DNA from: Cinclus cinclus
Taxonomy: Eukaryota > Chordata > Aves > Passeriformes > Cinclidae
Direction of reading: 5' to 3'
DNA: 64,000 bases
Assembly: GCF_963662255.1 (NCBI RefSeq)
Contig: NC_085073.1
Span: 3,534,001 to 3,598,000, forward strand
Shown: positions 25,736 through 54,800 of the stretch, in pieces
Position numbering within the stretch: the stretch's first letter is position 1
Layout: each line of letters starts with the position of its first letter
Made by a program: the position numbers and the translations under genes
The notes under the pieces: model-generated
Databases searched by the model: none
The model's input: the letters and a program-made list of their open reading frames with translations, nothing else
What the model was told of the DNA's origin: nothing

Positions 25736-25974
25736 GGGGACAGCAGTGAGTCCCCAGTGGCACTGTGCTGGGGACACTGATGAGTCCCTGATGTCACTGT
25801 GCCAGGGGACAGCAGCAAGTCCCTTGATGTCACTGTGCCAGGGGACACTGATGAGCCCCTAATGTCACTATGCCAGAGGACATTGATGAGTCTGATGTCA
25901 CTGTGCTGGGGACAGCAGCAAGGCCCTGATGTCACTGTGCTGGGGACACCGATGAGTCCCTAAAGTCACTGTGC
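25736..25974. repeat. 35-bp minisatellite with two alternating unit types
   Basis: About seven copies of a unit of about 35 bp begin with 'ggggaca' and end near 'tgtcactgtgc'. Two internal versions, 'cagcagcaag' and 'cactgatgag', occur in the order A-B-A-B-B-A-B, suggesting that the array grew partly by duplication of a 70-bp dimer. Confidence 0.9.
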
Positions 25975-26192
25975 CTGTGTCCCTGCAGTTCCACCCTCAC
26001 CCAGGAGGGAGCACTAGCGAGCCCGCAGAACCCTGCAGTTCCTCACTCTCACCGCCAGGCGGCGGCAGTGATTTAAACAGATACAAAATCTCAGCCTAAA
26101 TTTGTTAAGAGGCGGAAAAAATAAACACAAAAAACCTCTATTTCCTCCTTATAGAACCTGTTTTCTTACATTTTCAATGCCTTTATACTTAA

Positions 26193-30400: not shown

Positions 30401-33400
30401 CCCTGTGGTCGAAGTCGTGGAAGCGATCCTGGCGGCCGAAGTCCGAGTGGTACCGATCGTCCAGCGCCAGCCGCTTCGCCTCGGGCCAGTACGGCTCGTC
30501 TCGCCTGCACACGGGCTCACATCAGCTGCAGTCCCAGAAGCACCTCCCCGTTCCTGCCCTCCCAAACCTCATTCAACCCAATCATTAAAAATCTAGGTGT
30601 GTTAAGCAGGAATTGTGTTGTGGTTTCAGAGAAAATTTTGTTACCAAAACCAGCTTCATTTCAGCAGGTGCTGATGTGAGAAGAGTAAGTATCTTTCCCA
30701 TTGCCACTAAGAGTTGAGACACACAGTTACTACTCTTTGGGAAACAGGAGCAGACCGGAGCAGTGCTCACAAGTGTACAAGCACGGCATTTGCTCTTCTT
30801 CAAATGGCTATTAGTATTAAAAGCAGCACGCAAAGAGTCTTTCAGCTGTGAGCTCCCGTGACTGCCTTATCCAGAGTGCTCCCCATTTCCACAGGCTCCC
30901 AAAGAGGATATGGCTGAGGAGTTTGGAGCCCCACTGCCCTGCTCCTCACCTGCTGTCAGGATCATAAGGCCTCCTCATGGCAGAGCGCCGCTCCTGCTCA
31001 TAGCGCAGCTGCTCCTGCTGCCGTCGCAGCTCCTCCCTCTCCCTCTGGATTCGTTCCTGCTCCCGTCTCCTTTCCTGCTCTATGTGCATCCTTTCCCTCT
31101 CCAACCTCTCCCTCTCCAAGCGCTCTCTGTCCAGGCGCTGCCTTTGGAATTCCAGCCGTTCTCGCTCCCTCTGGAGCCTTTGTCTCTCATCCCGCTCGTG
31201 GATGGCTGCAAGGCGCTGCTCCCGGTCCCGCCTCTCTCTCTCTCTAATTTAAAAGAGATACTTGGTTTTTAACTGACACTCTTCAATCCAAGCTTTACTA
31301 TTTCTGTTTTGGGTGGGGTTTCTTGTTTGGTTTTTCCTTTTTTTTTAAAAAAAATAAGTTTCTATGTTCTCCCCCTTCTTCCCAATTAAGTAACAGCTTA
31401 GGGGAAAACAAAAAACTCCACACAAATGACAGAAGCAAAGGGGAGAATTCTGCACAAGTAACGCAGTTATCTACTCTTAAGTCAGGTCTGAAAAAGCTTT
31501 CAGAGATCAAAGCATTTCCTAAGACAGAAATCTGACATGCAAAAAGTATTTACAAGCTTCTGGGGGGAAAAAAAAAAAAATCAAGGAAATTCAAATCTAG
31601 TCAACTGGAATGCAAAGCCTGAAAGCACCTACAGAAGTCTCATGAGAACACTGATTTCAGCAGTCAAAGCCTCCATTTGGCATTATGTCTATTCTAGCAC
31701 TAATTAGTATGAAATCAGTCTGAGGTATCAGTGTTGGAGGCTCAGCACAGCACTGCTTTACAGCCTGCTCAAAACACAAAACAGGTAAGGCAGTAAAAAT
31801 GCCATTAGAAGTTTTGAGGGAACCAGAACTCACCGGCGCCTCTCCGTTTCCCTGATTTCTCTCTCCCTCTGCCTCTGCCGTTCCCGTTCCCGCTGCTCCT
31901 TGATTTTATCAAATGATAAAATGTCCTGCTTCTCTTTGCTCTCTGATTTGCGGTCCTGGCTTTTTGTGCTCTGAGATGAATCAGAACAATGCATGAGCTG
32001 AACACTGTGCATTTCCAGCTAAAACTCCTGGGCAAATACCTACACTATGTCAACTTGAACAAAAAAGGATACCATACCTACCCCAGAGGTAAACAGTGGA
32101 ATTCCAGGGAAAAGTATCCCAAATTTGACCAGAACTTCCCAATATTACAAATAAATACTAGGGGAACACAACCTGACTTACACTGATGTCAAACAACATG
32201 CACCAGTAACATTCCAAGCTCAGGGAAACACATCACCCTAACAACATTTTCAGATTGCAACTCGACTTCTTCCACTAGGTCAGAAGTGAAAAAGTGTTAA
32301 GAAAGATAAAACAGAAGCATTTCCTCTCTGCCACATCATTAACACCCTGATGCTTTCCAGAAAGTGATAAAAGGATAATTATACCAACGTGCAAAGCTAA
32401 AAACCCTTCATCTCTAAGCACATGAATCTACTTGACACCTGTTTTTACATGAAAGCTTCTCTGGAAGTTGGCCTTACCCTCTCTTTTGATGCAGAGGTTT
32501 TCACACTAATAACTGGCTCTCCTTTAGATTTATCCATTACCACTGTCCTTTCGGTTCCTCGACTTGCTAGAAAACAAAACAGAGCCAAAAATAAATGGTA
32601 CAAAAGACATTCAACAATTCTTGCAAGATTCAAAACTCTGACGACACTAAATGGTAAAAAATAATTTTAATGAGGTTTTTAACAACATATGGAACTTTTT
32701 AATGATTTAAATAGCTTGCCAAGATTTGGCCAACTTGAGGATGGGGGCAATAAATTTATCACAAAATGACAGCAGTGTTTTCTGACAGGGATGACAGCTA
32801 AGAGAACACAAATTTAATTAATTCTCCCGTCCACAAAATACATCTTTTGCCACAGTTTAAAAAAAAACACCCAAGAAAGGACACAGAACCACACAGTGTC
32901 AGGTCTAAACCCAGTGGCAGTTCCATAAAAATTATGGAAACTCTAAGTTATTAGAAATTGAAGTCAAAATTTTCAAGGTGTTTTCTGATTTTTGTGTGAC
33001 TTTTACTAAGTAAACTTCTTTTTACTGACTTATCAATCACATCCAATAATATATAAGTGTCCTTGAAAGCATTTCTGAAAGACACCCAGCATCACCTGAT
33101 TTGCTTGCCCTGGATCTATCAGAAGATCCAGTCTTTTGTTCATCCTTTTCTTTTCCTTCTTTTTCATCTTTTTCTGATTTCTTAGCATCATCTTTTTTGT
33201 CGATCTTCTCCTCCTTCTTAATACCAACAGACCTATGAAAAGCAGGAAAGCAAAATGCCTCTTTCAAAAGCAACAAACCATTTGGAAAACCAATGCTGGA
33301 AGTATTACCCACTAACCACACAGCCTATCACAAAGACAGACTAAATCCTAGAGATATTTGTCAGTTAAAAGAAGAGTCCAAGACAGAGTCAGATCAGAGG

Positions 33401-36400
33401 ACAAACAACTGGTAAAAATAACGGTTTACCTAGAAATAATTTGATTTAGTATCTCCTGATACAGCTAACAAGTTTTTATACTCAACACTAAAGAGCTTTG
33501 TATTTCTGAACAGATGGCCAGTTAAGATGCCTTACTATTGTAAAACATCAGCTTTCCAAGCATTATTCCTATTTCAAATGCAGGATGAAACATTAAATCA
33601 AGATTTATTACAATTACTGTTCAACTTGGTCACCTGGCTGTATTTGAAATGAATGGTCTTTAAATATTAAAAAAAGATAAAAATACAAAACAACACTTTA
33701 CTTCTCAGATTTGGAGTCTGCAGAATGGTGCCTGTCTTTTTCCTTCTTTATTTCACCTTCCTTTTTGTCTGAAGGCTTTTTTCCTGCTGGTTCATTTTTT
33801 GCCTAGAAATTCAGTCAGAAATAATTACAGTCAGAGACAGAGACTAAAATTACATGTTTTTATTTTCATTGCACTGCTATGAAATAGCTGTCACTTACCT
33901 TTTCCACAGAAATCATTTTACCATGCAGCTCTGTTCTGTGGAGGTGATTAATACACTTGGTGGCCTCCTCAGATGTTGACATTGTCACAAAGCCATAGCA
34001 GCGAGCGCCAGGACTGCGAGCATTTGTCACCACTTTTGCACCAACCACCTTTGGGAAAAAACCAAAATACTCTGTGTTTGCAGGTCTGACACTAAATAAA
34101 TTCTAATTTAATCACCATTTCTTAGAACAGTATGGATGGGAAAGGACTTTTAAAAGCCATTTAGTTCAATCAATCCCCAGTCACACGTTTAATAATGCAG
34201 CTCAGAAAACTCATCTTCAAGGTCCTGAGCAGGTCAGGAGGTTAAGGCAGATATATACAGAGAAGGGAGAGTGGGATGGTAAAAACCAAAATAAAACTGA
34301 ATGAACAAACCCACTTTCTCTTTGCTTGCATCTTTCCTTACATCTCTTTCCAGATGACAATCTGACAGGCAGTGGCACTTAGTAACATAAACATTTAATA
34401 TTACAGTTAGGAAAGTATTTGCAGAAGGGGAGAACAGAAAGAGTTCCCTTCCACAATGTCTGCTCTTGTACCCTAGCAGGCACTGCAAAACAAGTGCAAG
34501 CTGCCCTCAAGAACTGCATTTCTCCAGAGAATACCCCTTGAAATGGAGTAGTTTAAAGCACCATTGCTGGATACTCAAGCCATAATTAGATACTAAATGA
34601 TAACCTACCAGTCTCTCCTGTCAGGAATTGCCTCATCTCAGGTGTCTGCACAGATATTCTCTGCACACTCCAACTCTGCTCCCACCCCTCCATTTCAATC
34701 CCCTTTGTTGAACTGCACTCCTTTCAGATACACAGTTTCCAAAGAACACAAACTTAAGTATTCAGCCTGCCCAGTCATTAGTTAGGGAAAATAAGAGCTA
34801 AATTTAAGGTCAGCCTTTTCAACTGACAGAATGGTTTGTTAATTTACATATCCACTACGTACCTTTCCATACTTGCTGAAAAGATTTTTCAAATCTGTAG
34901 CTCTAGTAGAGGAGGAAAGTCCACTAACCCACAAATTTCTGCCAGAACTACTCCCCACACGGCCTGGGGTACAAAAAAGCCAAACATAAGAGACCACGTA
35001 GAACACAAATGCAGCAGCACAAAATTAACAGTCCCAAACTCTCCCCTCACATTTTTCCTTCATAAAACTCTTCCACTGCAGTTTTAATTCTGTATCTTCC
35101 ATTCATTCTTAAAATCAATTTGCAGGCTACATGCTGCAGCCTGCAGAAATGAACATCTAAAATCCATTGTTAATGTGCATTTGAAGGGCTTTAATGAGTT
35201 TGTAGCTACAGATTTTCTACCTGTACTTCAGTCACTTCAGAAGAACTAGAGAGTATCAAATGTTAACTCACAAAACAAGACTTACTTGAAACAAACCCCA
35301 ACTCTGTTTGTTAATAATGTTACAGAAGTCACAAGGAACTGGTATTAAAGTTAGATTTTGAAGGGATGTGTTACAACCGCATTGAGGGTTCATTGAATTT
35401 ACAGTTCCCTTTTTTACTTCAGGTCCTTTGAACATAAAAAGCCCCTAAGAAGCCCAAACATACACCTACCCTTCTCATCTTTTGCAACTGCCTTCGTATC
35501 TTTGTCTTCAACAGGGCTAAAGACAAAACACCACATTATTCAAGACATCATATGCAAAAAGAAAATTACTTCTAGACAGCACAACTAAAATTGGATACCT
35601 ACCAGTAAACTAGTTCCAAAATAAACGCTATTAATGGCAAATTTCTAGAAGAGTGACAGGAAATAGGGATTTGTACCCCTGAACGGACAATTCTGTTTTG
35701 CAGATGACAGAAATAAGAGTAATTTGGGGAAAACAACCTTTGAAGGTTGAGGAAGGAAAGAAATCAAACCCACTGCGTTTAAAAAAAATAAAACTATCTG
35801 CACATGGAGAAATAAAAGAGACCTTTAGGAATAGGCTACAATTTCATCAGTCTCGGAGGCCAATTGAAGGAACAGCTTATTCGCATCACTTAAGGACCAA
35901 TGATAAAAGATAGCATCTGGTCTAGAACGGAGAAAAAACAAACCTCTTTTTCTGATCACCGCCCTCACTGGCTGAGGACTCTTTAGTGGCAGGGGAAGAT
36001 TCCTCAGAATTAGCTTTGTCTTCTGCTCTCTTGCCATCTTCTTTGCTATCTCTGGCTTCGGCACCTGCGCCTTTCTCCGCTGTCTCCCCACTAGAGGCTT
36101 CCAGGCCTTGGGAGCGTTTGCTACTCTGATCGCTTAGGGTCTCTACCACTACACCTTCAGAGTCCGGGGCCTCTTCCTCGGGGCTCTGTTCACTTGTCTC
36201 CCCTTTTGCTACCACTAAACGCTTTGCTTCCTTCCTTGCCAAAGCTTGGGCCGATTTGCTGTCCAAAGCTAAAGCATCTTCCTCCAGCTGAGCGGCAGCG
36301 AGAGCGTCCTCTTCCTCAGCCAGCCTCTTGCCTGGCCCCGCGTTACTGGCTTCCTGCGCACGCGGCCGCTCCGCTTCGGGAGGTTCTTCGTTAAGTAGCT

Positions 36401-39400
36401 CAGATTTACAAGTTTCCCCCAAAATGTCGAGTATTTTCTCATTTTCTACGGATTTAACAGGAATAGAACGGCACAAGATTTAATCACCAGGGAAATACAG
36501 CAATCACAAACGTGGAACTGGCATGGCTGCCACACTAACACCAAGAGAACTGCTAAGCTACACAGAGATTGGAAAACCCTAGTGTACACAGTGTTACAGC
36601 TACCACGCTAACTGCTCTCTCACACCCTGCCAAATCAGCCCTAGCACCTCAACAGGCAAGAAAAATGCCCCCACAGATTTTACAAAAAACTTCGGGCTCA
36701 GCCTTCATATTCTTCAGCAAATCGTTCAGCTCTGTTTCTTCTCTAGTTAGCTTCCAGAGTCCGAGATGCTTAACTGAACGTATCAAGGCACTGAGAGTTC
36801 AATTTTCCAAATTTCTGTGAAGTTCTTTTAGCAGAGACAGTCCAACCTGAGAACTGGGCATCTTCTGATGGTGCATGAGTGTGTTTGCAGTCCAGAAAGT
36901 GAGTAGCATCTGTAGCAAATTCCTGTGGCAGCAGCATGTTCCTTCTTCTGATGTCCAGTCACTCTTTAATTCCTGTTCTGCACCAGAGCTTTGCACTGCC
37001 TACACTCCTGTATTTATAGTTATTCACAGAACTACTGTACAGTGTGATATCACAAGATCTGTTTTCAGAACCTTTACATCTTTAAGGCTCGTTCCATAAC
37101 TTCACTGTGCAGTAACAGTTCTAAGAACCATTTCATGGCATTAAACATGTTTTCCAAGCGTGGTTATTCACAGATCTGGTGATATGACTGGGTTTCCAAT
37201 CTCTATGACCCTGCGTGACCTGGATTTTCCACCATAATAACGTACACTACAGTAATGCATTAAAAGAAAGAACCAAAAAAAACCAAACAGGGACGCAAAA
37301 AGCCTAAATGAAGAATGAAACTGTTTAAATGCCCAAGATTTTTTTTTTGTTTCATTAAAAAAATAAATCAAAGTAACCAAACAAAAACAAACAGTACCTG
37401 GCTCCAGTGGTAACTCTTCAAGTTCCTGTAGTGAAAAAAATTTTAAAAAGGAGAAATATCACTATTTCATAACCACAATGCTATTCTGAATGACATCTCT
37501 TAATCACCCATTACAGGAGAGTATTTAGTGAAAGCATTACTATGATTTAATCTATTTCAGCTCTGGAAACACTGAACTGCAAACACATTTCTCAGAATAA
37601 GGTTTAAGGTGAGTTTTTAGCATCCCCAAAGTTTTATGAAGTCTGTGAAAACTTTAACACCTCTCAAATTCAGCCACCTGTTAAAACATATGGTACATAT
37701 TCACATGGGTAAATAAATCAATAAATCTAAGCAGCTGAGAGGAAAGCTTATCTTCACATTACCCTTCTCTACCCTGTGCTTTTCTCCTTTCTGAAAACAG
37801 GATCAACAGAAACACCAGCTTCACCTGGAGCTCTTAACCTACCAGGTGTGATCTGGAAACAAGGCCAGCATTTCAGGAATAGACAGTCCCACCTTCCTTC
37901 TCACCATGGGATATTCCATTTTTAATGGAAGTTAAACACAATGTAAGGCACTGAGCTGGTATTTCCATCAGATAAAAGGAATCCAATCTACCACCAAACT
38001 CAGGATGATACATACACCAGAAATATATATATATATATATATATATGCATATATACATACATATACACATGCATATATACATACACACACACACATATAT
38101 ATACACATGACCTGATAAAGAAATAAATATTTGTCTTTATGAGGAAATTAAAAAGCATTTGTTCCTTTTCTTTGCAAAGTAGGAATGCACCCACTGTACA
38201 TACACTGTTTAAACACATGTTATTATTTAGTCTATTTTATGCTTGCTTTGTTTGTAAAGAAAAACTGGCTACCATTTACCTTTATTACGGTTAAATTTGA
38301 TGAAGAAGCATCTAAACTGTTCCCAACATCTTCAAACTCTACCTTTAAAAAATAAATGGGAGACATCTTGTTATCTGCAGATGAATACTGTGAGTTAAAC
38401 CTGAGGGAGACACTGAAGATTTGTATTTGCACTGACAGCTGTTACCCTGCAAGCACATCCTGCTTCCAAAGTTACCAATAATGGTAAAAACTGAGTGATA
38501 ACCCCCAGGACTCTTCCTGACCCACAATGACTGAATAAGCTCTTTCATTATCTCTTAACTATGATGGTCAGCTCACAAAAATCTTGTAACTACGGGGATT
38601 CCAACAGCAAAACTTCTCTGATTTTTATCCCTGTCATTTACAGTAACAACACAGAGCCAAAAAACCTACAGGACTTGATAATTATTTCCTTCACTGATAA
38701 AAGCAGATCATGGGAGCTGATCTGGCCTCAAGACATTTACTCACTCAAAAAAACCCCCTTTTTCTCAATATTTCCATTTGATTTGGGTAGTACAGGGATA
38801 TACCTGGAGATAAGGGGCCAAGTTTATTTCTGCAACTTTAGAACCTCATAGTCAATGCGGACACACAACAAAGAGCAATACTCCCCCATCAGATGGGGCA
38901 GAAATAATTTCAAATGCTTTGTTGTATATGCCAGGATATAAAACACTTGAGCAGAAAAATAACCTTGAATATAATTCCCTGAAAGGTGCCATTCAGTTGA
39001 GAAGAAAGTAAGCTACACTATTTGTATGCCTCAGATGTTCTCTAAAATAAAGATATAGGAATAATATGTACGTTATAATAAGGTGAAGCAGAGTTCAAAG
39101 CATGATTACAAACAAATGCTCTGTAAACTGCCATTAATACAACCACACGTATACTAACAACATTTAAGTATTTTAAAAATGAAGACTTGTATTTCCACAA
39201 ATATGTAAAAAGAAAAACAAAGACCATAAGAAACTACAGTAGAGTCCCAAATTTTCCCAAGTATTCTTTAGCCACCGTTTTGCTATTTAATTAATAAATA
39301 AATAAATTTTAAAAAGAAAACCCTGATTCCACAGTGATAAGAGATGCATACCATTACTATTGGTATTTCTCTTGATTCTTCTTTAATTTCTGAAAATTGT

Positions 39401-42213
39401 GGGGATGCCTCCAAGTTACCTACAGCATACTCTGTAGGCTGATCTGGAAGTTCTTTCACTTCTGCATCAGCACTTCCTTTACTATCAGACAGCGAATCAA
39501 GAATATTATGGGCACTGTAATCATCTCCACAATCTACAGCATTGCCATTATCTATTTCAGCTTCATCTAACACACTAATATCCATCATGTCAATATCCTG
39601 CAAGTTATCCAAACTTGCTTCAATATCGTCCTGTGGAAAGAAAAAAAGCACATGTCACAGTCAGGGTGACTTGAGAGCCATCTGCCATCAGTCCCCTCCA
39701 AAGCCAGCCCCTGTACCTGGCCATCTCCAGAATCCTCCTCCAGGCCGTTGTCTTCCACTCCCTCTTCGTCTGGCCTACGTCCTAACAACATTACCATCAT
39801 TAGAATGAAAACAGTAATTAGAGCTGTACCTTCAAGCTTTACTTTCTCACCAGAGTTGGTATTCCCTTCAGTTTTTGCCCTTTTTCCCACAACTGTTTGT
39901 TATCACCCCAGTAAGTGACAAACACACCACAGTCCAACAGCTGGCAGGAGCTCAAGCTCTGTGACCTCCCCGGAACATTTGGCTCAGATCAGATTGCAGC
40001 AATTTATTACCTCAACCTTTCGTTTCTTTACTCTTACTAGCACAGAAAAAAAAAAAAAATCCAACCAACCAAAACACAAAATACTGAAAACACCCCACTC
40101 TACCTTTGAGTTTTGCTGCAGTGCTCTGTCCACCAGCTGGATGTGAGTGATCCCAACTGGCATTACTGAAAACACTACACCAGCTTCAGCACCAAAGAGC
40201 AACTCCTCCAACTCTGAGCTGAGCAGCTGCTTGATCTTTTATGAATTTTATTTTCCTCAATAACTACAAGCACATTACAACTGGAAAGTGAGAGGGGTTT
40301 TAGAGCCAAGAGGAACATTTCATCTACTTCCATCCCAACACTAAAAGCACTGTAATAGACATCAGATGTTTTTCTGAGACGTGAAAATGAATATGATTAA
40401 AAAGATCTCTTTCACCCAGAGCTGTGACAATTGCCCTTTATCTGGTCAAGATTGTACATTTTAGCCTGCAAGCAATTGCACCATCACTCCAAATCAGATG
40501 TAGTAACAAAACTCAAATTAGCTGGCAAAACAGTTGATTTTCATATCACAAATTTACATTCTGTGTAAACCAAATCTAGTAATGAAAATACTGTAAGACA
40601 ATTATTTTGCTCAGCTCCAATGCAAAGTTGTAAACACTATTTGCTTACAAAAGACAATCAAATTGTGCTAATTAACCAATTTTTGAAAACCAGCAAGTTA
40701 TTCTCTAAAAATAATGATTACGTAAGACTGTCTCTCCACTACAAAACCCAAACATAAGGCCTTGAAAACATGTCTGACTTGAAAAATTGATTAAAAACTT
40801 GTCTTCTGGGAAGAAAATTGCACCTGCTATTAGCTATGAAGCATAATGCTACAGACCTTATTTTGCATTTCCTAGAAATTCTGTCTTTCTACATAAAAAG
40901 GTATAAAAAATACTGACAGTGCTTCAGTGTTACTTGGTAATTTTCAATACAATCTCAGGGAACTCTGAGAGCAAACCAATGGAAACTTCAACATTTCTTG
41001 CCTTGTTAAATCACATTAAATTCTCTGAATAAAAGACTATTAAGTTTAATATTAGATCACCCATCCCTAGAAACCTAAGCACAAAATTGGGGAAGAGTAC
41101 TGGTAACAAATAAATCTTTTTCTTATGAAGGTTAAGTTCAATGAAGATCCAAGGATGATAAGATGGAAAGTTTCTCTAACTGCCCTGTACCTTTGCTGCT
41201 TCTTTTTGGAGTTTTCTTCACTATATTTTCTGAAACCACTGGAATTTCATCAGGATTCCCTCCTTCCTCTTCAATAGCCTAATAGGGGCAAAAAAAAAAA
41301 ACCACATATAAAAACAGACATTAAATTTTTCATTTGTACATTTTTGTTGAGTTTAAGAGCTGGAAACCACAGGCCAAAAAATTCCAAACCATGAATCAGC
41401 AACTGGGACATGCGAATGAAAAACCACCAGACCAACGCAACAAGCACACAGAAGGCAGTAACATGTTGGTGTAAGGTTTCGGGAAAGCAGTCAGAAAAAA
41501 AACAAAAAAAAAACCAAAACAATCCTACAGCATTTGTGGCTGTGCACAGAAACACGGGTTGCTGTGACAAAGTAAAAACCCCGGGACACTGCAAGCAGCA
41601 GGTCAGATTAGGGAACGCACGAAACGTTGTCATGAAGACAGCGAACGGGCTACCAGCTAGATTGCCAGAAAAACATCAGTACGCAGCAAAAAGCCCGACA
41701 GACAGCGTACAGAACTGTAAATCCAAGAACTCAGGCAACAGCGGAAGACTGTAGTGCACGAAACTAAAAATACTCGGGCCGAGTACTGGAATCACAGCGG
41801 GACTCGATGACACTCCGTGACAGCAGCGGCCGCAGAGCGAGCCTGGGACGGCCCAGGGCAGGCCCGGCCTGGCCGGGCACCGAACGCTCGCGCGGATCCC
41901 GGCGGGCCCCGGCCCCGCCGCTCTTTGGCGCCATTTTCCTCAGCGGTGCTCGCCGGGCCGGGGTCGCAGCAGCTGCACCCACTCCTAAGGCAGCCGCAGC
42001 GCGTCCGCCCGCTCTCACCTTCCTCAGCCGCTCCATGAGGACGCTCTTGTTCCCGCCGCTGTCCAAGTTGCGGTGCCTGAGCTCGGCCCGCAGGTCTATA
42101 ACGCGCAGCTCGCTCAGCGGCCGCCGCCGGCTTTCAGACTCCGAACCGGTGACGCCAGGTCCAGCCAGGGAAGAAGACTCCCCCAGCCCGGCCGCCGAGT
42201 GACTCTCCGCCAT
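27428..42213 (-). CDS. SAFB2: SAFB2, scaffold attachment factor B2
   Basis: SAFB2 is a nuclear matrix and RNA-binding protein that binds S/MAR DNA and acts in transcription repression and splicing. Twenty-one exons join in frame to 933 residues (human 953): 42213-42019, 41278-41191, 39781-39717, 39630-39424, 38342-38280, 37425-37398, 36445-35944, 35516-35470, 34963-34863, 34048-33899, 33802-33702, 33232-33096, 32566-32478, 31970-31834, 31243-30950, 30504-30367, 29643-29604, 28912-28800, 28049-27937, 27732-27666 and 27554-27428. Domains: SAP about 33-67 ([20 protein letters not shown]), acidic region, RRM about 406-485 with NLWVSGL and ARCYGFVTM, Glu/Arg-rich coiled region about 592-735, Gly/Arg-rich tail ending RFSRRY. 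Named SAFB2 because it points away from MICOS13, as in human. Exon 7 is identical to that of SAFB. The exon 4 donor is the weak GCT|gtaggt. Confidence 0.95.
30950..31243 (-). other. SAFB2: SAFB2 exon 15: Glu/Arg-rich coiled segment
   Basis: This exon encodes about 98 residues dominated by Glu, Arg, Gln and Leu, with repeated [14 protein letters not shown] blocks, and ends RRPYDPDS. The coding strand is almost purely purine in long stretches. It has exactly the same length (294 bp) and phase as exon 15 of SAFB. The family uses this region for self-association and partner binding. Confidence 0.93.
33899..34963 (-). other. SAFB2: SAFB2 RRM exons 9 and 10
   Basis: The RRM is split over exon 9 (34963-34863) and exon 10 (34048-33899). 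The RNP2-like motif is NLWVSGL and the RNP1-like motif is [13 protein letters not shown] has NFWVSGL at the RNP2 position. The intron between the two exons holds a weak possible CR1 remnant near 34127-34240. Confidence 0.93.
34127..34240 (-). mobile_element. Possible degraded CR1 fragment in SAFB2 intron 9
   Basis: The plus strand reads 'gatgggaaaggacttttaaa', 'agttcaatcaatccccagtc' and continues with weak similarity to reverse CR1 3' sequence. Similarity is low and the boundaries are guesses. Confidence 0.3.
35711..36806 (-). repeat. SAFB2: Inverted identity tract, left arm (SAFB2 exon 7 and flanks)
   Basis: Read on the minus strand, this 1,096-bp tract matches 49170-50265 on the plus strand base for base wherever I compared it. 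I checked both intron flanks line by line, one internal exon stretch, and translations in several frames. It includes the complete exon 7 (35944-36445). Identity ends abruptly at 35711, where the next bases differ completely, and with three substitutions and one indel over about 90 bp beyond 36806. Coordinates of the arms sum to 85976 throughout, so there are no internal indels. Confidence 0.93.
37397..41190 (-). other. SAFB2: SAFB2 introns 2-5
   Basis: These introns separate the small exons of the acidic region. They hold a TA/CA-rich microsatellite at 38022-38108 and otherwise AT-rich unique sequence without recognised repeats or RNA genes. An in-phase open extension follows exon 4 to a second possible donor at 39352. 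Confidence 0.6.
38022..38108. repeat. Compound TA / CA-TA microsatellite
   Basis: A long 'ta' run is followed by interrupted 'catata' and 'ca' runs. It lies in SAFB2 intron 5, about 260 bp from exon 5, and explains the short Tyr/Cys/Ile-repetitive open frames there. Confidence 0.95.
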
Positions 42214-42707
42214 GGGCCGTGGTTTGGAGCGGCGCGCACGGGACGAGGAGGGACGAAACCAACGCGGGAGCGCCGCAGCCGCAGCTGCAGCACAAAATGG
42301 AGGAGCCCTGAGGCGCTGGGTAGGGAGAGGGGGCGGGAAAGAGAGGGAGGCGCAGCGCGCATGCGCACCGAGGCCCGGGGAGGCCGCGCGCGCCGCGGCG
42401 CCGTCAACTCCGGAGCGGCGGTGACGTCACGCAGCCAGCCGGCCCCCGGACCCCCCTGCGCATGCGCGAGAACACTCGAGCCGTCCTTGGACGCGGGCGA
42501 CGCCATTTGCGCTTGCGCGGGGCGATTCTCCCGCCAGGCCCCGCCCGCTCCGTTCTGCCCGCGCCTGCGCACAGCGCGCTTTGTTCCCCCTCCCCTCGGC
42601 GACTGTCGCTCCCCACCATTTTGTGCCGTGATCGCCAGTTTCGCTGCTGGGTTGTGCCGTGTTCTCCTGCGCGTTCGGGCTCGGGGCGAAATACTGAAGG
42701 GGCCTTG
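42214..42707. promoter_or_regulatory. SAFB2/SAFB bidirectional CpG-island promoter
   Basis: The 494 bp between the two start codons is GC-rich and CpG-dense. Near the middle it carries the palindromic full CRE TGACGTCA (42422-42429) and two NRF1-type palindromes, cgcgcatgcgca (42356-42367) and tgcgcatgcgcg (42457-42468). An Sp1-type gggcgg lies at 42331-42336. A compact shared promoter between SAFB and SAFB2 is known in mammals. All the central motifs are near-palindromic and so equally usable in both directions. Confidence 0.9.
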
Positions 42708-42896
42708 ATGGCGGAGAGTCAATCAGCGGCCGGACTGGGGGATTTCACATCCCTTGGTGGGGCCGTGGCTTTTGGTTCCGAACCCGAAACCCGGCGGCTG
42801 AGCGAGCTGCGAGTCATCGACCTGCGGGCTGAGCTCAAGCGGCGTAACCTGGACAGCGGGGGGAACAAGAGCGTCCTCATGGAGCGGCTGAGGAAG
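42708..42896 (+). other. SAFB: SAFB exon 1: SAP domain
   Basis: This first coding exon holds 63 residues, including the whole core of the SAP DNA-binding motif ([18 protein letters not shown] and SVLMERLRK). The matching SAFB2 exon (42213-42019, minus strand) is 65 residues and has nearly the same 3' end, but the nucleotides have diverged in the middle. The start codon has G at +4 and T at -3. Confidence 0.93.
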
Positions 42897-45800
42897 GTGA
42901 GGCGGGGGGAGACGGGGGGAGCGGCGTGCGGCCATCCGGGTCCTTTGTCTGGGGCGCTCTCGGCGCGTGCGCGCTCGGGGCCGGGCCCGGGGCCTGCGGC
43001 GGGGCTGCCGTGAGGGGAGCGGGGCTCCGCTGCTGCCACCGGCCACCCGGGAGTGTCCCCTTTGCTCCCGCCGCTGCAGAGCCGTTGCCTTCGCGCTGTT
43101 TCATGGCGCCGCTCTGTGCTGTGGGCGCCCGTTCCGCCGCCCGCGCTCCATCGCTGCTCTGGAGCGCGGCTCGGGTTGCACTGGCTGGAATCTGAGATGG
43201 CCTCGGCCTTTCTGTCACTGCTTGACCCCGACGTCCGCGCGTCCTTCCCCCATTTACTCTCCAGTTTTCCCATACACATACATGTGCCCCTTCCCCATAC
43301 CTTTTCTCGTGCTTGTTCTCTACGCCGTTCACATAATAGGTAAAGTTGGAAGGGAGCACAGCGAGTCATCTGCTCCAGCAGCGTTTTGTCCTAGAACCCA
43401 TGGTGTAGGGTTTTGTCCAGACAGTTACTGTATATGTCCAGTGGCAGAGATTCCACACTCTCCCTGGGCAGTCTGTTCCAGTGCAGGCTCACTCGCACAG
43501 TAAAGAATTTTATTCTCCTATTGAGGTGAAACTTTCTGTGCATCAGTTTCTGCCCTGGTGCTTGGCGCCCCCACACTTGACCCAACTCCATCTCTCCGAC
43601 CTTTCTGGAATGTATTCCCATAGATTTCCATGAGGTCAGAACAGCACAGTCAGCCTTGGACCCTTACGGGTTCTAACAGGCCTGCACTTTGAGAAAAAAC
43701 TCATGTAACTGAGCTCCTGTTTTATACCTTTTTTATGAGTCTCTTAACAGTTTTATACTGTTACTGTGCTTATCTGCTCCCCAGCTGTGGCTTGATTTGG
43801 CTGTGGGGTTGTGTTATACCCTATTATTTAGTATTTCTGTCAGGTGATAGAGCTGCCTGGCTGTATGACCTGAGCTAGGGAGAGACACCAGTGTTTCTCT
43901 CTGAAATATCCTTACAAATGCAGTTGTGATTAAACCCTAGCAGGCAGCCAAGCACCACATGGCCACACACTCAGGATGGGGGCTAGAAGTGGAAGGGTAA
44001 AAGGGAGAATAAATTTGTGGGGTTGTGATAAAGACATTTTTATAAACTTAAGAAATGTTAGGGCAAAAAAAACCCCCAAAACTACACAGATGAAGAAAAT
44101 TAATAAAGCACATGAAGCACACAAGAGAAACAAGCAATGTGAAAGAAAATTAATTCCTTACTGTCAACCAGCTCAACTGATGCTGAACCAGATCTCAAGT
44201 AATGGCAACCCCACCAGCATCCACCAGTTTTATTGCTGAGCACAACACCCTCTGGTCTGAAATATCCTTTTGGGCAGCTGTCCGGCTGTGTCTGTTCCCA
44301 ATTCCTTGTGCTCCTCCTCTTGCAGTGAGGCAGAGTGGGAAGCAAGAAAAGCCTTGACATTGTGTAAGCTCTGCTCATCAGTACCCAAAACTTCCCTGTG
44401 TTACCAGCACTGTTCTCAGCACAAACTCCAACCACAGCCCCCTGTCAGCTGCTCTGAGGGAATTATGTGCCCCATCCAAAGCCAGTACAAATGCACACCA
44501 GCAAATAATACAGTGCATATCATCCTGCTGTCTCCAACAGGCCATTGAGGAGGAAGGAGGAGATCCTGATGAAATTCCCGTGGCCTCAGAGCTGACCACA
44601 AAGAGAATGCCAAAAAGAACTAGCAAAGGTATGGTGTCTGGACACTTGCAGTTCTACTGTCTGCATGGCACTAGAACTTGGCATACAAACTCGTTTTCTC
44701 CTTTTGAATTAGTTTAATGTTTTTTTAAATATTGCTTTTTACCTTGTGCAAAATTGTAAAACTCTCTTGCATTAATGAGCAATAACAACTTTAAATGATA
44801 ATACGACACCTGGCTGTGTTTTACCAAGTCCTGAAACTTGAAGATGAAAGTGTAAATTGCAGGTGTTTCTGTGTTTGTGACCATGAGTAAGAATTGTGTC
44901 AGGTACAGAGCAAGCAGCTGCAGCATAAGCTCCATGGAAAGCCTCTATCATTATAATTCATTTATACTTAAACTGTAACTTTAACTGTATGTTGTTTCAA
45001 AATATTACATATTGTACATGTGTACTTTTTACATGTGGCTTATTTGAGTTGCTCACATCTAGTTTTTAAAAGTACTTTTTGATGAGAAACAGACTAGTAA
45101 GCTGCTTCTTTTAAGACAGACTGGCTAAAATAGAAGAAGCTGTTGTCTTTGAATAGCAGTAGGAGTTTGGGGGTGACAGATGTGCTTAAATGTGATTTGT
45201 ATGTCTAAGATCTTGAAAGTGAGCACTAATTCTTAAATCCCTTTAATTAAGGGAGATGTTTTTGTAACAATCTTAAGGTGTTACATTTAAATGGATTACC
45301 CAGAGCCTGTTGCATCTTTTTAGGTGTTGAAGTGTTGTGGAATGAGACTGTAGCTTTAGAAAAATACTGGGCTGCTTGTAGTTTGTGCTCCTGTTTGCTT
45401 TTATGGGGGGGCAAGGTGACCTCAGTTGTAACCATACAGACCCAGACTTCTGAATCAGCCTCATAAGGATTACTTATAACAAGTTGAGTGTTCAACAGAT
45501 AATTCACCAAAGCTTAAACATATTACAAAATGTAGTGCTACATCTTACTGCAGTGATACTGTTTTTAGGAAGAAAACCAGAAGAGGAAGGTGTGGAAGAC
45601 AATGGTCTAGAAGAAAACTCCAGAGATGGGCAGGTAAGTGAAATCATGATTGTAGCTACTAAGAATGTGCATCATGAATCTGCAATGAATACACATTTAC
45701 CCTTTTTCTCTCTCTAGGAGGATATTGAAGCAAATCTGGATACCTTACAGGATATTGACATGATGGATATTAGTGTATTAGATGAAGCTGAAATAGATAA

Positions 45801-48800
45801 CAGCAGTGCTGTAGACTGTGGGGAAGATTATAGTCCTGACAATATTCTCGATTCTCTGTCTGATAATAAAGATAATGTTGAAGCAGAGATGAAAGAGCTT
45901 CCTGATCAGCTAACAGAAAATGAGGTGAGTGAGTAGATGTATTTGTATTTTTTCAGAAGATGTTTAATAGGATATGGGCACATGAACAAGATATTTTAGT
46001 CCAGTAGAATACAGGACATGAATGTGATTCAGATTCTATTCCCCATTCACAGCTCTCATGTCCTATTCTTATAAATGTAAATATTCTTGAGGCTTGAAAT
46101 GTTCTCAGTAGACGAGTCATCTTCCTTACCTTTCAGTATCATCTTTCCTTGCTGTGAGAGGAGCCTGGAATTGAAAATGCTGTATTAGTTTCTGTATTCC
46201 CTCTTCTTGTTTATGTTGCATATGTTAAAGTGTATATGTGCATACACCCAGCCATCCTAGTATTTATATATATGGGGAGAGAGAAAAAATAAATTTTCAA
46301 CTCAGGTAATTTGGATATCTCTTCTGCAGAAATAATGCTCTGGTTTAAGGAAGTTGTGTTGTTCTGTTTTCTTATAGAGATTGATAAAAGAAGAATTCCT
46401 ATATTACCCTGTTTTGACATTGCTTTGACTTGGTTTTGAGAGCAGCTAGCAATGTCATTTGGAGACAGCACAGGGTTATGCATAAGTCACATGCATTCCC
46501 CAAATATTACCCTTCTGGGATCCTTGAGGGTTTGGATTTTTTATTTCTTTTAGGCTGTTCACTCAGCAAATATAACATACTCTCCTTTGCCGTCTGCATA
46601 TCTGCTTCAACTTCTTATCATTTACCTTCTGTCACTTGAAAAGGGAGATTTTTCTCAAAGCCTTTGTGTTTGATTGTCCTGTCAGTGCCACAGGAAAGCC
46701 AAAACCCTTGGGCCCACCAAGTGTCAGCATCCTGTTCTGGGGACTCTTCACTGGGCAGTCCCCTGGATCAGAGAGTGGTTCCAGTGCCTGGGGAGTGTCA
46801 CACAGAGCACAACAGAGCCCTGTCCCAGGTCTCCTCACTCCTCTTATTCACTGGTGGTGCCCTTTAAGGACTCACACTGAACCCATTATGGAATAACACC
46901 GTTTGTATCAGAAAATTACAACAGGGTTCCAGGTTCCAGGGTTGCTAGTGGTAGTATCTGTCTGTAAAAAAAACCCACCATACTAACCAGCTTTAATTAC
47001 TGAGAGAAGCTGGCTGGAGTTCATAATTCATCACACTTATAGTACAATTCTTACTCACTATACATCCCTAAAGGGGAAAAGACAGGTTCAGACTGCTGCA
47101 GTGGAGCCTTCCCTAACTTCTCCCCACTTTTAACTTGTTTTAGTGCTATTTTTATGTTTAGGCGGAGCTTGAGTGATTCTGGTTGTGCATCCTGCTCAGT
47201 GCAGGGTGGTCATGCCTTGGAGGTGGGTGACATCAGTGGGACATCTGAGGTGACCTTTGGCACAGAGCTGTGCATTCTGCTGGTTCAACAAGAAATCTTT
47301 TCCTTTGGTTGACAGCTGCTCTGTGGCTTATCAGCTACAAGGTACCAGTGAGTCCTCCCTCTTGCAGGGATTTCAACAGAGCCCAGCTGTGGTGTCTGCA
47401 CCCCCACAGACCAAACAAACACAAAGGCTTGGAGAGACTCTCCCCTTTGATGGGGCTGAACACAGAGTCATTGCGACAGCATTCCCTTAGCCTGAAAGGC
47501 AATTTTGTAGTGTTCTGTAAATTAACCTTATGTAACCAATGAGTTTTGGTTGAATCTTTCCCCCAGCTCGTTAAAGAAGAAAGATTTTTGGGATATTATT
47601 TTCAGTTTGGAAGAGTGTAAACCTAAGTCAGCTTAATTTCTAACTTGATTTTTTCATTTAGAAACTTAAGTTAAAAAGTGGGGAAGTGAAAAAACATGTT
47701 CAGTACCCACAGAAATGTGAAATAAGACTCTAAAAATAACTTTGAAATGGACAATGTCCTGTTGAAATTAAAGTGAAAAGTAATTAGAGAAAGATGTTTA
47801 AATATGAGGTTATTTCCACGTTGCTCCTAATTTTTGGATCACACTCTGAAGTAGCAATTGAGATCTGTCAAAAACTTTAAAATACTTCTGGTATTCGTGA
47901 AAGGGAAAATTAAATACAGCTGTATTGTTCTTAATCTGCTTTTGGTAAGAAATGCTTTCATTCCTTTTTTACTCTTTCAGGAAGATTATGATGAAATTGA
48001 AAACAATTTAGAAGCTTCCTCTTCTGATTTAATTGAAATGAAGGTAAACTGAAAATATGGCTGTATTTCATAATTGTACGTTGTATTATTAACTCAGTTC
48101 TCATACTACAAAAAAGAAAATGTGACTGTGATATGAAATTGTAACAGAATCCAAGACATTTATTTATGACCTTGCTAAGCACATGTGTGAATTGAGAGTG
48201 CCCTGTGATTTTATTTTCCCCACTTTTCAGTCAGCTCTTAAGATTGCCTTTATGTTATGGCAGATAAAAAGGGTCTCGTACTGCTGATTTCTTCTCTCTT
48301 CCACTGTTATATGAAGTAGTGACTGCGTTTGGTTTTTAGTCTGTAGTTGGTGTGGTAATGCACAAAGATACTTTATTGGTCTCTTTTATAAGTTGTGGCT
48401 GATATTTTGATTTGGCTTTAGTGTGTCAGAAAAGTTACCTATATAAAATACACATTTCCAGTGGCTGGTGAAAAAAGAGCTAAATGTAGTAGATGAATCT
48501 GTTTAGTTTTCAATTTTGGGATTGGGCAGGGAGTCGTTAATATTCTGTGTTAGAAAATGCATTTTATAAAATCCTCATTCTGTGGTCTTTTTCTCCTAAA
48601 CAGAAAATGGAGAAACTACACATGGAGCCAGGTACTGTTAAAGAAAAACATATTCCTGTCTTTTCAACTAATACTTTTTAAACCATTAACTATTAAAAAA
48701 CCCAAGCAAACAAACATAATTTGCATTATTTTTATAATGGACAATCCAGATCGTGCAGGGTCATAGAGATTGGAAACCCAATCATATCCCCAGATCTGTG

Positions 48801-51800
48801 AAGTGATGCTTGAAATACTTCCAGTGAAATGAAATGGTTTAAAAACCTGTTAAACTACATAAATGGATTTAGAGAAGTTTAATCACAGTTTTAAAAGCTA
48901 AATATTCTACTTGTAAACAGATCTTGTGATATTGCACACACCTTAACTCTGTTACTAATTAGAGAGCAGTGAAAGCAGTAAAAAGATATTGTAGGGTATT
49001 AAAATGTAAAGATTAGTTACTGGATACAGAAGAAAGAAGAGAGTTTCTTCATGGAAATTTCATACAGATACTTTTCCCTTTCTGGACTGCAAACACACTC
49101 ATGCACCATCAGAAGATGCCCAGTTCTCATGTTGGACTGTCTCTGCTAAAAGAATTTCACAGAAATTTAAAAATTGAACTCTCAGTGCCTTGATACGTTC
49201 AGTTAAGCATCTCGGACTCTGGAAGCTAACTAGAGAAGAAACAGAGCTGAACGATTTGCTGAAGAATATGAAGGCTGAGCCCGAAGTTTTTTGTAAAATC
49301 TGTGGGGGCATTTTTCTTGCCTGTTGAGGTGCTAGGGCTGATTTGGCAGGGTGTGAGAGAGCAGTTAGCGTGGTAGCTGTAACACTGTGTACACTAGGGT
49401 TTTCCAATCTCTGTGTAGCTTAGCAGTTCTCTTGGTGTTAGTGTGGCAGCCATGCCAGTTCCACGTTTGTGATTGCTGTATTTCCCTGGTGATTAAATCT
49501 TGTGCCGTTCTATTCCTGTTAAATCCGTAGAAAATGAGAAAATACTCGACATTTTGGGGGAAACTTGTAAATCTGAGCTACTTAACGAAGAACCTCCCGA
49601 AGCGGAGCGGCCGCGTGCGCAGGAAGCCAGTAACGCGGGGCCAGGCAAGAGGCTGGCTGAGGAAGAGGACGCTCTCGCTGCCGCTCAGCTGGAGGAAGAT
49701 GCTTTAGCTTTGGACAGCAAATCGGCCCAAGCTTTGGCAAGGAAGGAAGCAAAGCGTTTAGTGGTAGCAAAAGGGGAGACAAGTGAACAGAGCCCCGAGG
49801 AAGAGGCCCCGGACTCTGAAGGTGTAGTGGTAGAGACCCTAAGCGATCAGAGTAGCAAACGCTCCCAAGGCCTGGAAGCCTCTAGTGGGGAGACAGCGGA
49901 GAAAGGCGCAGGTGCCGAAGCCAGAGATAGCAAAGAAGATGGCAAGAGAGCAGAAGACAAAGCTAATTCTGAGGAATCTTCCCCTGCCACTAAAGAGTCC
50001 TCAGCCAGTGAGGGCGGTGATCAGAAAAAGAGGTTTGTTTTTTCTCCGTTCTAGACCAGATGCTATCTTTTATCATTGGTCCTTAAGTGATGCGAATAAG
50101 CTGTTCCTTCAATTGGCCTCCGAGACTGATGAAATTGTAGCCTATTCCTAAAGGTCTCTTTTATTTCTCCATGTGCAGATAGTTTTATTTTTTTTAAACG
50201 CAGTGGGTTTGATTTCTTTCCTTCCTCAACCTTCAAAGGTTGTTTTCCCCAAATTACTCTTATTTGTAATCATCTTCTTAATGTAAGTCAGTTTAAGAAT
50301 CTGACTTCGTTATTTCTTGTCAGATTTCTTAAATCCAGTATACAAAGGTGTGTTTTCGTTTGCAACATATTTTCTGGTAGGTATTTAATTTTAGCTTTAT
50401 TTATAATATATATTTAGTCACTTTTCTTTCTGACTTGAATAATGTGGTGTTTTGTCTTTAGCCCTGTTGACGAGGACAGAGATACAAAGATAATCTCAAA
50501 AGATGAGAAAGGTATGTTTGTTTTCAGATGTAAAACTTCAATGATTGCTTGGATAGCAATTTGTCTTGGATGGGTTATTTCAGTAGAAATTGATTGCAAT
50601 CTATGCAGTTGTTAAATAGCATAAATCCTTCTCTTTCTGCATTTTCACATTAATGTCAAAATAAGTATTTTCCTTTATGCATTTTTTCAAAACATGTGCA
50701 TTGCACTGTTGTGTTTATATGTTGATTATTGAAGCTTGATGTTAATACATGGCAATTAATGCCTTTTTTTGGCACTGGAAGATGCCCACTAACAGCTGTT
50801 AGTGAGTTAGAAACCTTTTGCAATTGTGTTTGCTTTAATATACACTTGAAATTCTCCTTCCCATCTTCTCTTTTGCTGAAGTAATTTGGGATCCAGTATT
50901 AACATATTTAAATGCCACAAATATTACAGCTTAATATTGTCTGATTATACTGATTTTTTGAAGTCTTTGTCCACACCGATCCTATCTGTGGTGCAAATAT
51001 GCACCATAAGCATGAAGAAAATATTTTGATGAGTGTCAGATGCCATCATACTTCCTGCTTTTAATACAACATGTAGCTGAGTCTTTGCAGCTCACCCACC
51101 TCTCTGTCCAGGGCAGAAAAAATGAGATCTGACCGTTACCCTTCTTCTTACATGCTGCTGACAGGTACTTTAGCACTTTTTAATTGTGGAATTTCCAGAA
51201 ATTCCTATAAAAATCAAGAAACTCATCATGAAGTCTGACTGCCAACTGGACAGGAGGAATTGGATTGGTTTTAATTGGGTTTTACAGCCCAGACTCTCCT
51301 CCCTGTCAGCTGCTTTTTCCAAGATCCTGGCCTGTACCTGTTTGCACCAGCTGCTGGACCTCTCTTGTTAGGGTCAGTTTACCTCTTGTTTCCAGTCTAT
51401 AATCTTGGGTTCTCTTATTTCAGAATATTTCAAGGAGTTTTCTGTGCATGCTGTCCTGTACCTAAGGACTTGAGTGCATTATTTTTTGTGGACCGAGAAA
51501 ACTCTTCCCTGAGTTTGCTTTCAGAGCAGCCTTCAGGAACTTGGGTATCTGAAACCACCTTGCTCCTGCATCCCTCTCTGCAATGGATGTGTATTCCATA
51601 ACATTTGTTTTATTCATGTTCTGGCATAGTGAGCAGCAGAGGTGAGAAGGAGCTGCTTGATACTGTAACATTCTCTTCCTGCAGAGCAAAGTGACTGAGC
51701 CAGAAGGAACCTAAACCAGTATAAACAAGTCAGTTCTGCCTCATACATTGCTGTTTTCTCACCTGTATGAAAATATTTTATTTAGGATGAAGAGTTCTTC

Positions 51801-54800
51801 ATATTCCATGCAGTAATTCTAAGAACTGTGTCAACAGGAGTCCAGAAAGATAAATTTGTGAGCTCACCCTGGTGGATTTGTCTGTCAGTGGATGCACATC
51901 TGAAAGATGTCTCCAGTGTTGATGGTTGGCTCCCAATACCTGCATTGTTATTGTCTCTTAAGTTAAATATTTTCATGTCACAGTATTTCTTTGTCTTAAA
52001 AGTGCAGAACCATTACAGGAGCGCTGTAAAGTCTGTTTTTTTTAAAGTCTTATGGGAGGGCAAAACCTGGAGACATTAAGACTAGTCAATCCTTAATCAA
52101 AGGACACTAAGCATAGTTTTAAAAATCTTAAAAAATTCATCAGTAGAATAGCAGAAAAGAGAAAAATGAGCATTTTGTTCTTTCTCCAGGATTCTGGTTC
52201 CAGAGTAACTGCAGGTAGTAATTTTGAAATTGTAGAAATGTGTGGAGTAAAAACATCAAAGCCTTTGGCTTGGCTTTTTTAGTTTTTTTTTTTTTTTTAA
52301 ACACCAAAGCAATTCATCTCCCATGTATTTTGTGTGCATGACATACTTTTGTCCATGCACTTCTGAGATAAATGATGGCAGGTGTGTACTCACCGTTATA
52401 CAGAAAAAGCCTTTTTTTGGGTGTTTTTGTAAGAGGCTGATTTAAATCACGTCATCCTTCCCTAGGAAACCTGTGTAAATATCAATGACTGTGTTCTCAG
52501 TTACTTGTGCCAGTGACTGAAATTATCAGGAAGTAGAAGATGGAGAGGCACTCAAATAAAACAGCATTTATGAAAGGTTCTGGGAAAAATCACTTCCCTC
52601 AGTTAAAGAGGTTCTGTAAAATTCCATATATCACCAAAATAAAAACCAAAGCAGAAGGGTGGAAGCAGGGAGCTGGAGTGAAACCCATTCACTGGGGCCT
52701 TGGAACTGCCCAGACTGACAGAAGGACAGTACAGACATTTCAAAGTGCTCAAACAGTGTCCTTGTGTAAGTGCTTCATACAAACACTGGACCTTGGAGTT
52801 CAGTTCCCTCTTTAATCACTTGATGTTGGTTGTTCAGACTTGGCAGATTGGTTAGCATTTATTAAATCACCTTTGTAGCAGTCATGCAGGATTTGCCAGT
52901 ATTCTGTAATTCTTGCATGGTTAAAGCAGGCCAGGTCTTCCCTAACTCCTGCAGCTGAGGTCAGACTCCATATCCCAACTGTGGATCTGTGTGGGCAGAA
53001 ACAGAAATTTCCTTGGTTTCTTGGTGGTGAATGGCTTTCCTTGAGAGGAATTCTGCATCCCCTCAGCATTCCCTTGGACTTAGGATAAAAAGGCAAGACA
53101 AGAGCACACATGGAGTGCAGAAACAGTTCCTGCAACACTTGCAGGGCTTCTGTCTTCTGTAAGTTACTGAGATCTATCCTGGCACATTTTGAAGGGCCTC
53201 ATTTATTTCAGAGGTGCCCTAATCCACTTGCTTTCTTGAAGAATGATATAAAATACTTGAGTATCAAAACCCATAGGTCCACCTAAATGTTTTGGACTTG
53301 TAATGCTCCTTCAGCAAAGCAAATCATGGGAGGAGAATATCAGACAATACATTTCACTTGCTTTGTGATTTTAAAAAAAATAAAGACCTGTGATCCTGCT
53401 TTGTTTTAATTGACATAACGATTCAAGTAATTAATCCAGATAATTAGGATTTGGGATATGTTTTGGTTTTGTCTGTTTGTTTTCCCAACTAGGTCGCAGT
53501 GCTGGCAGTTCTGGTAGAAACTTTTGGGTGAGTGGATTGGCTTCCACCACCAGAGCTACAGATCTGAAGAATCTGTTTAGCAAATATGGAAAGGTAAGGG
53601 GTTATTTTTGTTGGTTTGTTTTGGTGTTTGGTTTGTTTGCACAGGTTTGTTTGAAACTGTGTTAATAAGACTTTTTAATGATCACTAAAAGTACCCATGA
53701 AAGGAATCCAATTACCAGAAATATTGTGGGATATCAAGGAAAAATCACTGAATGATTGGGGGTTGTTTTATTGTGTTGCTCAGAATATATAAAAATAAAT
53801 ATAAAATGCCATTTGTGGCTCTTTATTTGAAATAGTCAGTAACTGTTTGCACACACTTCTGTGCTGCAGTGTGGTATATTCACCTGCTGAAAATTCACAG
53901 TTGGCTGAATTTAATGCTTATTAAAGATTTCCTTAGGACTCAGTAAATACACAGTAAATGTTGAGACAGAATTACTGGGGAATTAAGAATTGCCTTAGTA
54001 ACTTAAATTTTAATTTATCAGGAGTTGGCAGTTCCTTTAAGAAACACTTGTTTGGTAGTTTGGGATATGGGGAGGTGCTGTTTGGTTTTACAGGAAGGGG
54101 AGATCCTGCAGTTGCTGTTCCGGACAGATAAAATGTCAGATCTCCCTGTCAGCTGGAAAATTGAAGAAGTTCAATAAAAGGCTGATACCAGAGCCATCAG
54201 TAAGGATTTTTGTCGGAATTCTGAAGCCTATTTACAGATTACTACCAGCAGATTGTAGTAAAAGCAAATTGTATGTGCTGACAATCAGCCACTGGATGTT
54301 TTTCTGATGAAAATACTCTGAAACTTAAATATGACTTTACAAATAGGTACAAAACTGGATTAATTGTAGCACAGCTTGGAGTTTGAAAATAATGGGAATG
54401 GTAAAACCTTTTTAAATGCTCCTTGAAATGTAATATTTTCACTGATTTGCTTAGAATTCCATCTGGTAACCTAAAATGTTGATCATAGAGATGAGCCACA
54501 AAATTTTAAATGTAATTAAAAGCTAAACAACAGCCAACCTAGTATTTGGCTCTAGATAGATGCCATGGTATCATTTAGTCATTTAAATAAAACCTTGTCA
54601 TTTTCTTCAGGGTATTAGCAGAGGCAGAGCTTCCTGGAAGTGGATGTACTTGAGCAATAAAGTAAATGCTCAGAAGTAGGTTCTTTATTCAGCTCCTGAA
54701 ATATGATGGATTTCTGTATTACCAAGTGAGCTGTATTGAATATCTGAGCATATGTAAACACCATTTGTGTGACTTTTTCAAGCTGTATTTTTTGGGGAAA

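Follow-up and report, generated by a model that had tools for sequence, protein, structure and literature searches.

In a 64-kb stretch of Cinclus cinclus DNA (NCBI RefSeq contig NC_085073.1, positions 3,534,001 to 3,598,000 of the forward strand; the whole stretch is referred to as the window), the neighbouring paralogous genes SAFB2 and SAFB are identical over exon 7 and parts of the introns on either side of it. From this identity and from comparison with the paralog pairs of other species, we conclude with high confidence that recurrent non-crossover gene conversion takes place between the inverted SAFB2 and SAFB copies, and that it is mainly limited to exon 7. The window contains no N, and tblastn searches with avian orthologs located SAFB2 on its minus strand and, head to head with it, SAFB on its plus strand. 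These names follow the original prediction, which was made from the window sequence alone; most bird records label both paralogs 'SAFB1 factor' or 'SAFB1-like'. The features compared are:

35711 to 36806, minus strand: SAFB2 arm of the identical tract, made up of the end of intron 6, exon 7 and the start of intron 7 (0 of 1096 mismatches against 49170-50265).
49170 to 50265, plus strand: SAFB arm of the identical tract (base-by-base comparison; inverted-repeat search).
35946 to 36446, minus strand: SAFB2 exon 7, mapped over 167 codons, an acidic segment that separates the SAP part from the RRM part (tblastn, avian SAFB2 orthologs).
49530 to 50030, plus strand: SAFB exon 7, 167 codons mapped, the same as SAFB2 exon 7 (tblastn of protein record P0001).
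27431 to 42213, minus strand: coding part of SAFB2, from its first mapped coding exon to its last (tblastn with P0071 and P0067).
42708 to 61671, plus strand: SAFB coding span (tblastn of P0001).
36807 to 36921, minus strand: intron 6 sequence flanking the SAFB2 arm, differing in 4 of the 93 columns closest to the tract and in 10 of 115 overall (alignment).
49056 to 49169, plus strand: SAFB counterpart of this flank (alignment).
37167 to 37240, minus strand: intron 6 island, 88 % identical over 74 bp to SAFB 48729-48802 (repeat search, blastn).
35510 to 35544, minus strand: 35-bp exact match to 50434-50468, spanning the border of intron 7 and exon 8 (alignment).

The original prediction had claimed a perfect inverted identity of 1,096 bp between SAFB2 and SAFB, with no indels, and this was confirmed base by base. 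The reverse complement of 35711-36806 matches 49170-50265 at 1096 of 1096 positions without an indel, and the adjoining base differs on both sides. An inverted-repeat search recovered the same pair of arms, extending slightly beyond the ends of the tract. The tract in this window comprises exon 7, the longest of the exons mapped by tblastn, together with 590 bp of intron, all identical. At a divergence of 17-25 %, the probability of a clean run of 1096 bp arising by chance has a log10 of about -89 to -137.

The further claim that introns outside the tract do not align holds for most of the two genes, where the remaining blastn matches between SAFB2 and SAFB are nearly all exon-sized, but not near the tract. 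On the intron 6 side, the flank at 36807-36921 is probably an older conversion tract; past its nearest 93 columns, identity falls to 56-73 per 100 alignment columns, and the island further into the intron is either a remnant of an older exchange or a constrained element. On the intron 7 side, similarity is lost immediately, save for the exact match across the exon 8 border, which measures at least 35 bp.

Between SAFB and SAFB2, dS was 0.93 and dN 0.11 over the 408 codons of nine mapped blocks outside exon 7, whereas none of the 112.7 synonymous sites of exon 7 has changed. The window proteins outside exon 7 are 72 % (154/213) and 76 % (400/526) identical, and homogenisation therefore does not extend to the whole coding sequence. 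Because introns and synonymous sites are identical as well, selection at the protein level is insufficient to account for the tract. Bird mutation rates are 1.9-4.6e-9 per site per year. At these rates, three differences would be expected in the tract after 0.3-1.3 My, and the latest full exchange in this species is therefore probably younger than that.

Proteins of other species were drawn from the best 120 of 1765, 1863 and 686 matches in protein database listings of vertebrate SAFB and SAFB2 proteins. These species were compared as protein, and intron homogenisation refers to the DNA of this window. The comparison covered 23 SAFB/SAFB2 pairs, 20 of them informative; the uninformative pairs were those of Heliangelus (SAFB model without exon 7), Corvus brachyrhynchos, and Cariama (two SAFB isoforms). 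The exon-7 segment is 100 % identical between paralogs in 13 informative pairs and 97.5-99.4 % identical in the other seven, with 65-84 % identity before it and 73-85 % after it. In six sauropsid and three mammalian pairs, the homogenised protein segment corresponds to the extent of exon 7. Among species, the exon varies (the window is 84 % identical to chicken and 76 % to alligator) and it is not slow, with a mean divergence among 16 birds of 0.122, compared with 0.065 for the rest of SAFB and 0.094 for the rest of SAFB2. We note that P0023, a turtle SAFB protein, carries the name septin-4 in its source record, an apparent misannotation.

Within exon 7, 3790 of 3806 species-by-column cells have the same residue in both paralogs (16 differ); elsewhere the count is 11919 of 15717 (3798 differ). 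Residues that are unique to one species and present in both its copies number 70 in exon 7, distributed over 16 of the 23 species, and seven elsewhere. Barring parallel change, each of these 16 lineages must therefore have undergone an exchange separately, at least once, after the residue had changed.

The original prediction proposed that, if conversion had occurred, paralogs would cluster by species inside the tract and by gene outside it. This test was run on proteins, using a tree set of 23 hand-picked pairs (46 rows, the window included). Two of these pairs are composites, namely Cynocephalus SAFB with Galeopterus SAFB2 and one from two Buteo species. The SAFB2 records of Macaca and Callithrix, together with Bos mutus and Eublepharis (one paralog seen), were left out, and Strix and Nothoprocta perdicaria were not added. 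Same-species paralogs were nearest each other in 23/23 pairs in the exon-7 tree and were joined in 0/23 in the trees of exons 2-6 and 8-20. Outside exon 7, the sauropsid sequences formed SAFB and SAFB2 clades (support 92/90 and 100/88), as did the mammalian sequences (support 100 each). Constraining bird SAFB exon 7 to a single clade was rejected (p 4.6e-64), as was constraining all 23 SAFB exon 7 sequences (p 1.9e-5); sets of identical rows were left free, 11 in the first case and 14 in the second. Tract identity, clustering of exon 7 by species, and shared derived residues are direct observations. The proposal of inter-locus conversion in an inverted pair is thus strongly supported, but what had been read as a single recent event is better described as concerted evolution in the birds, alligator, turtles and placentals examined.

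In elephant, hippopotamus and elephant shrew, SAFB and SAFB2 are 98-100 % identical in exon 7 and 41-94 % identical in other blocks. A nearest-match test in mammals used 28 SAFB and 13 SAFB2 proteins, hand-picked from the best 120 of 686 matches. For 11 of the 13 SAFB2-side exon 7 sequences, some SAFB was at least as near as any SAFB2 (nearer in seven, tied in four). The two exceptions were pinnipeds, which share one and the same exon 7 sequence and whose own SAFB proteins were not among the 28. Judged by the N and C parts, every one of the 13 SAFB2-side proteins was nearest another SAFB2. The SAFB2 records of Macaca (P0271) and Callithrix (P0273) are identical to SAFB far beyond exon 7, and are probably chimeras produced by transcript assembly across the shared exon.

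As judged from the proteins, exchange at exon 7 has recurred since at least the archosaur-turtle split, because turtles, alligator and birds all fall within the sauropsid clades of SAFB and SAFB2, and it has occurred in placentals also. The archosaur-turtle split dates to about 250 My and the placentals to about 100 My. For the relationship of mammals to sauropsids, the front part gave a swapped grouping in a quick tree (support 9), without rejection of either alternative (orthologous, p 0.62; lineage-wise, p 0.65), and the back part gave the orthologous grouping (support 75; swapped p 0.094, lineage-wise p 0.35). The proteins alone do not decide between one duplication before the amniotes and two separate ones. 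The gene layout favours one, as the human SAFB pair is also divergent, with about 500 bp between the genes (PMC4582101, in the part of that source dealing with gene arrangement). The corresponding interval in the window, and the part of exon 1 beside it, are:

42214 to 42707, no strand: 494-bp GC-rich gap from start codon to start codon (tblastn start codons).
42014 to 42123, minus strand: part of SAFB2 exon 1, 90 % identical, inverted, to 42792-42901 (repeat search).

The 494-bp interval is likely to be a shared divergent promoter of SAFB2 and SAFB, and GC content is 0.69-0.72 across 42000-42999. Exon 1 carries a second, weaker signal. Same-species pairing was found there in 2/22 species, both of them the turtles examined, and in Trachemys SAFB and SAFB2 are identical at 63/63 positions (turtle pairs P0025/P0070 and P0043/P0111). 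Exon 1 is thus a possible second conversion site in turtles, adjoining the shared promoter.

The mechanism we infer consists of break repair, a non-crossover outcome, and feedback between identity and conversion. SAFB2 and SAFB are old inverted duplicates that are transcribed divergently. A break in one copy of exon 7 would be repaired from the other, which is inverted and about 12 kb away, mostly without crossover. Each such event would overwrite exon 7 and, with it, a few hundred bp of intron, and new mutations would thereby be either erased or spread to both genes. Exon 7, the longest exon mapped and an identical one, would remain an efficient partner, whereas the other exons and the introns would be too diverged; long identity would ease conversion, and conversion would renew identity. 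Of the 174 proteins scored, 173 have front and back parts that fit the same window gene; in the one exception, a sheep model, the scores are nearly equal. No sign of a fixed crossover-inversion swapping the 5' halves was found among the sauropsids listed.

That the second arm is false, one gene's reads having been placed at both loci during assembly, would account for the exact identity of the arms, and records can indeed break at exon 7, as in Corvus brachyrhynchos, where both models lack different parts of it. However, 20/20 informative pairs from other records have exon 7 at 97.5-100 % between diverged flanking exons, the flank adjoining the tract is no copy but has diverged slightly, and an assembler is not expected to collapse copies that are about 80 % identical. 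An assembly error behind the identity is very unlikely, because many records show the same pattern at this exon, with lineage-specific letters. A single duplication of the exon from one gene to the other in an ancestor of this species would likewise give exact identity, and would fit the sharp end on the intron 7 side. It is refuted by the presence of exon 7 in both genes of chicken, alligator, turtles and mammals, with shared changes specific to each lineage, and we give it practically no weight.

Strong purifying selection might by itself keep the copies of exon 7 alike. The SUMO acceptor lysines of human SAFB1, K231 and K294, are reported to be important for HDAC3 recruitment and repression in the relevant passages of PMC4402547, and by position and context both sites would fall within the exon-7 segment; the hippopotamus rows have VKEE and VKRE at the two sites. 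However, the motifs are not retained everywhere. The rows of the window, chicken, alligator and Pelodiscus have AKGE at the second site only, and other matching turtle rows add LKEE at the first. Among the 16 birds, exon 7 also changes faster than the remainder of SAFB or of SAFB2, and the identity of introns and of all synonymous sites refutes purifying selection acting alone, provided that the assembly is right. We consider this explanation to have next to no chance of being correct.

A different role for selection lies within gene conversion itself. Conversion may persist at this one exon through selection for the same exon-7 segment in both proteins, for instance as a common SUMO/repressor surface or for partner binding, rather than because the site is prone to conversion, a reading that we consider possible, though we lean away from it. 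The homogenised segment coincides with exon 7 in the nine sauropsid and mammalian pairs given above, and the only comparable signal in another part is that of exon 1, in two turtles. SAFB1 and SAFB2 have been reported to heterodimerise (PMC4582101, in passages on their interaction). The faster than average change of exon 7 speaks against a need for one particular sequence, but it leaves room for a need that the two copies be alike, and the CpG-rich introns of the tract fit a hotspot or biased repair instead.

The tract introns hold 12 CpG in 590 bp, compared with 87 in 22616 dinucleotides elsewhere, a 5.3-fold enrichment (Fisher p 9e-6) for which the comparison windows overlap and nearby non-identical windows of SAFB2 intron 6 (about 37010-37130) are CpG-rich too. 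As a hint only, this is compatible with biased repair, or with a recombination site that is unmethylated. The part of SAFB2 intron 6 at about 36990-37360, which lies outside the tract, is about as CpG-rich as the tract introns.

Several results weigh against recurrent conversion at exon 7. The Corvus brachyrhynchos pair scores 70/93 in the exon-7 segment; as its models lack different parts of the exon, we note that the paralogs are identical across the 61 residues present in both, with one joint change from the window, which suggests that identity in exon 7 can upset assemblies or gene models. Bos mutus, an odd model, gave 93/100/72 % across the three thirds. Homogenised introns are demonstrated in this window alone, and neither the direction nor the mechanism of repair was observed. 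No GC bias was seen overall in amino-acid changes (toward:away 28:19 in exon 7 and 132:95 in the rest, p=1.0). Single lineages lean in opposite ways (toward:away GC 9:0 in passerines and 9:0 in pigeon, 0:5 in sandpiper and 1:6 in duck), and GC-biased conversion judged from amino-acid changes was rejected as evidence.

A fuller history can be put forward tentatively, and as a whole we consider it rather unlikely. One inverted duplication before the amniotes would have been followed by more than 300 million years in which a single exon was kept in step between two nuclear proteins in every lineage retaining both genes. Sameness of a shared SUMO-dependent repressor surface would have been selected and renewed by a conversion-prone site at the exon, and any crossovers, with their inversion of the 12-kb interval and exchange of the genes' front halves, would have been purged.

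Elsewhere in the window, an open frame at 11590-13266 (plus strand) matches MED26 nearly end to end (Pfam Med26, Med26_M and Med26_C; PDB Mediator subunit 26). A piece of a gene of the triose-phosphate-transporter family (PF03151) is found at 17940-18287 (plus strand) and is perhaps SLC35E1, which adjoins MED26 in human. Two tandem repeats were found, a GC-rich one at 16364-16579 (20-bp unit, 10.8 copies, 93 % matches) and a degenerate array of about seven 34-bp copies at 25731-25975, downstream of the SAFB2 coding end.

Inverted-repeat palindromes have arms that are kept identical by intrachromosomal arm-to-arm conversion and that are long and near-identical throughout; the SAFB/SAFB2 arms are inverted too, but measure 1.1 kb and lie inside two otherwise diverged genes. 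The mammalian stress-inducible Hsp70 pair is intronless and homogenised over nearly its whole coding sequence, unlike SAFB/SAFB2, in which one exon of about 20 is homogenised. By its title, PMC5865164 reports purifying selection and gene conversion acting together in the Hsp70 pair.

The closest parallels are BMP8A/B, DDX19A/B and TUBG1/2, for which long-lasting mosaic concerted evolution has been described (Carson and Scherer 2009, PMC2720389), and SAFB/SAFB2 belongs to this class. As in those old two-gene pairs, some exons and introns are homogenised by gene conversion and others diverged, and trees differ by part. BMP8A/B is likewise inverted, but its genes are about 235 kb apart. Those pairs mostly involve runs of consecutive exons over more than 100 My in eutherians, whereas the SAFB pair involves one exon, in birds, alligator, turtles and placentals. 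SAFB is absent from the main text of that paper, and the screen required two consecutive exons and their intron at >97 %. A one-exon case would therefore escape it, and in the window exons 6 and 8 are diverged and exon 7 alone is identical, leaving no two consecutive exons with their intron above that value.

No report of conversion between SAFB and SAFB2 was recognised among the papers listed in the literature searched, which omits most subscription journals and for which some listings covered 20 of 158, 10 of 15 and 8 of 210 hits. PMC12767296 contains both terms, but the passage concerned deals with gorilla acrocentric SAFB2 copies. Passages on SAFB1/SAFB2 conservation place its peaks in the SAF-box and RRM (PMC4582101), or put similarity at 74 % overall, rising to as much as 98 % in certain functional domains (PMC4402547), and exon 7 is not named in these passages of either source.

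SAFB/SAFB2 thus represents long-lived and unusually narrow concerted evolution, in which a single exon is held together in those sauropsids and placentals that were examined and the remainder of each gene diverges. An old question thereby becomes testable, namely whether long conversion persists because sameness is selected for, or because a stretch of identity, or a hotspot, sustains itself. Work that relies on exon 7, whether with siRNAs, antibodies, gene trees or the mapping of short reads, may confuse SAFB with SAFB2.

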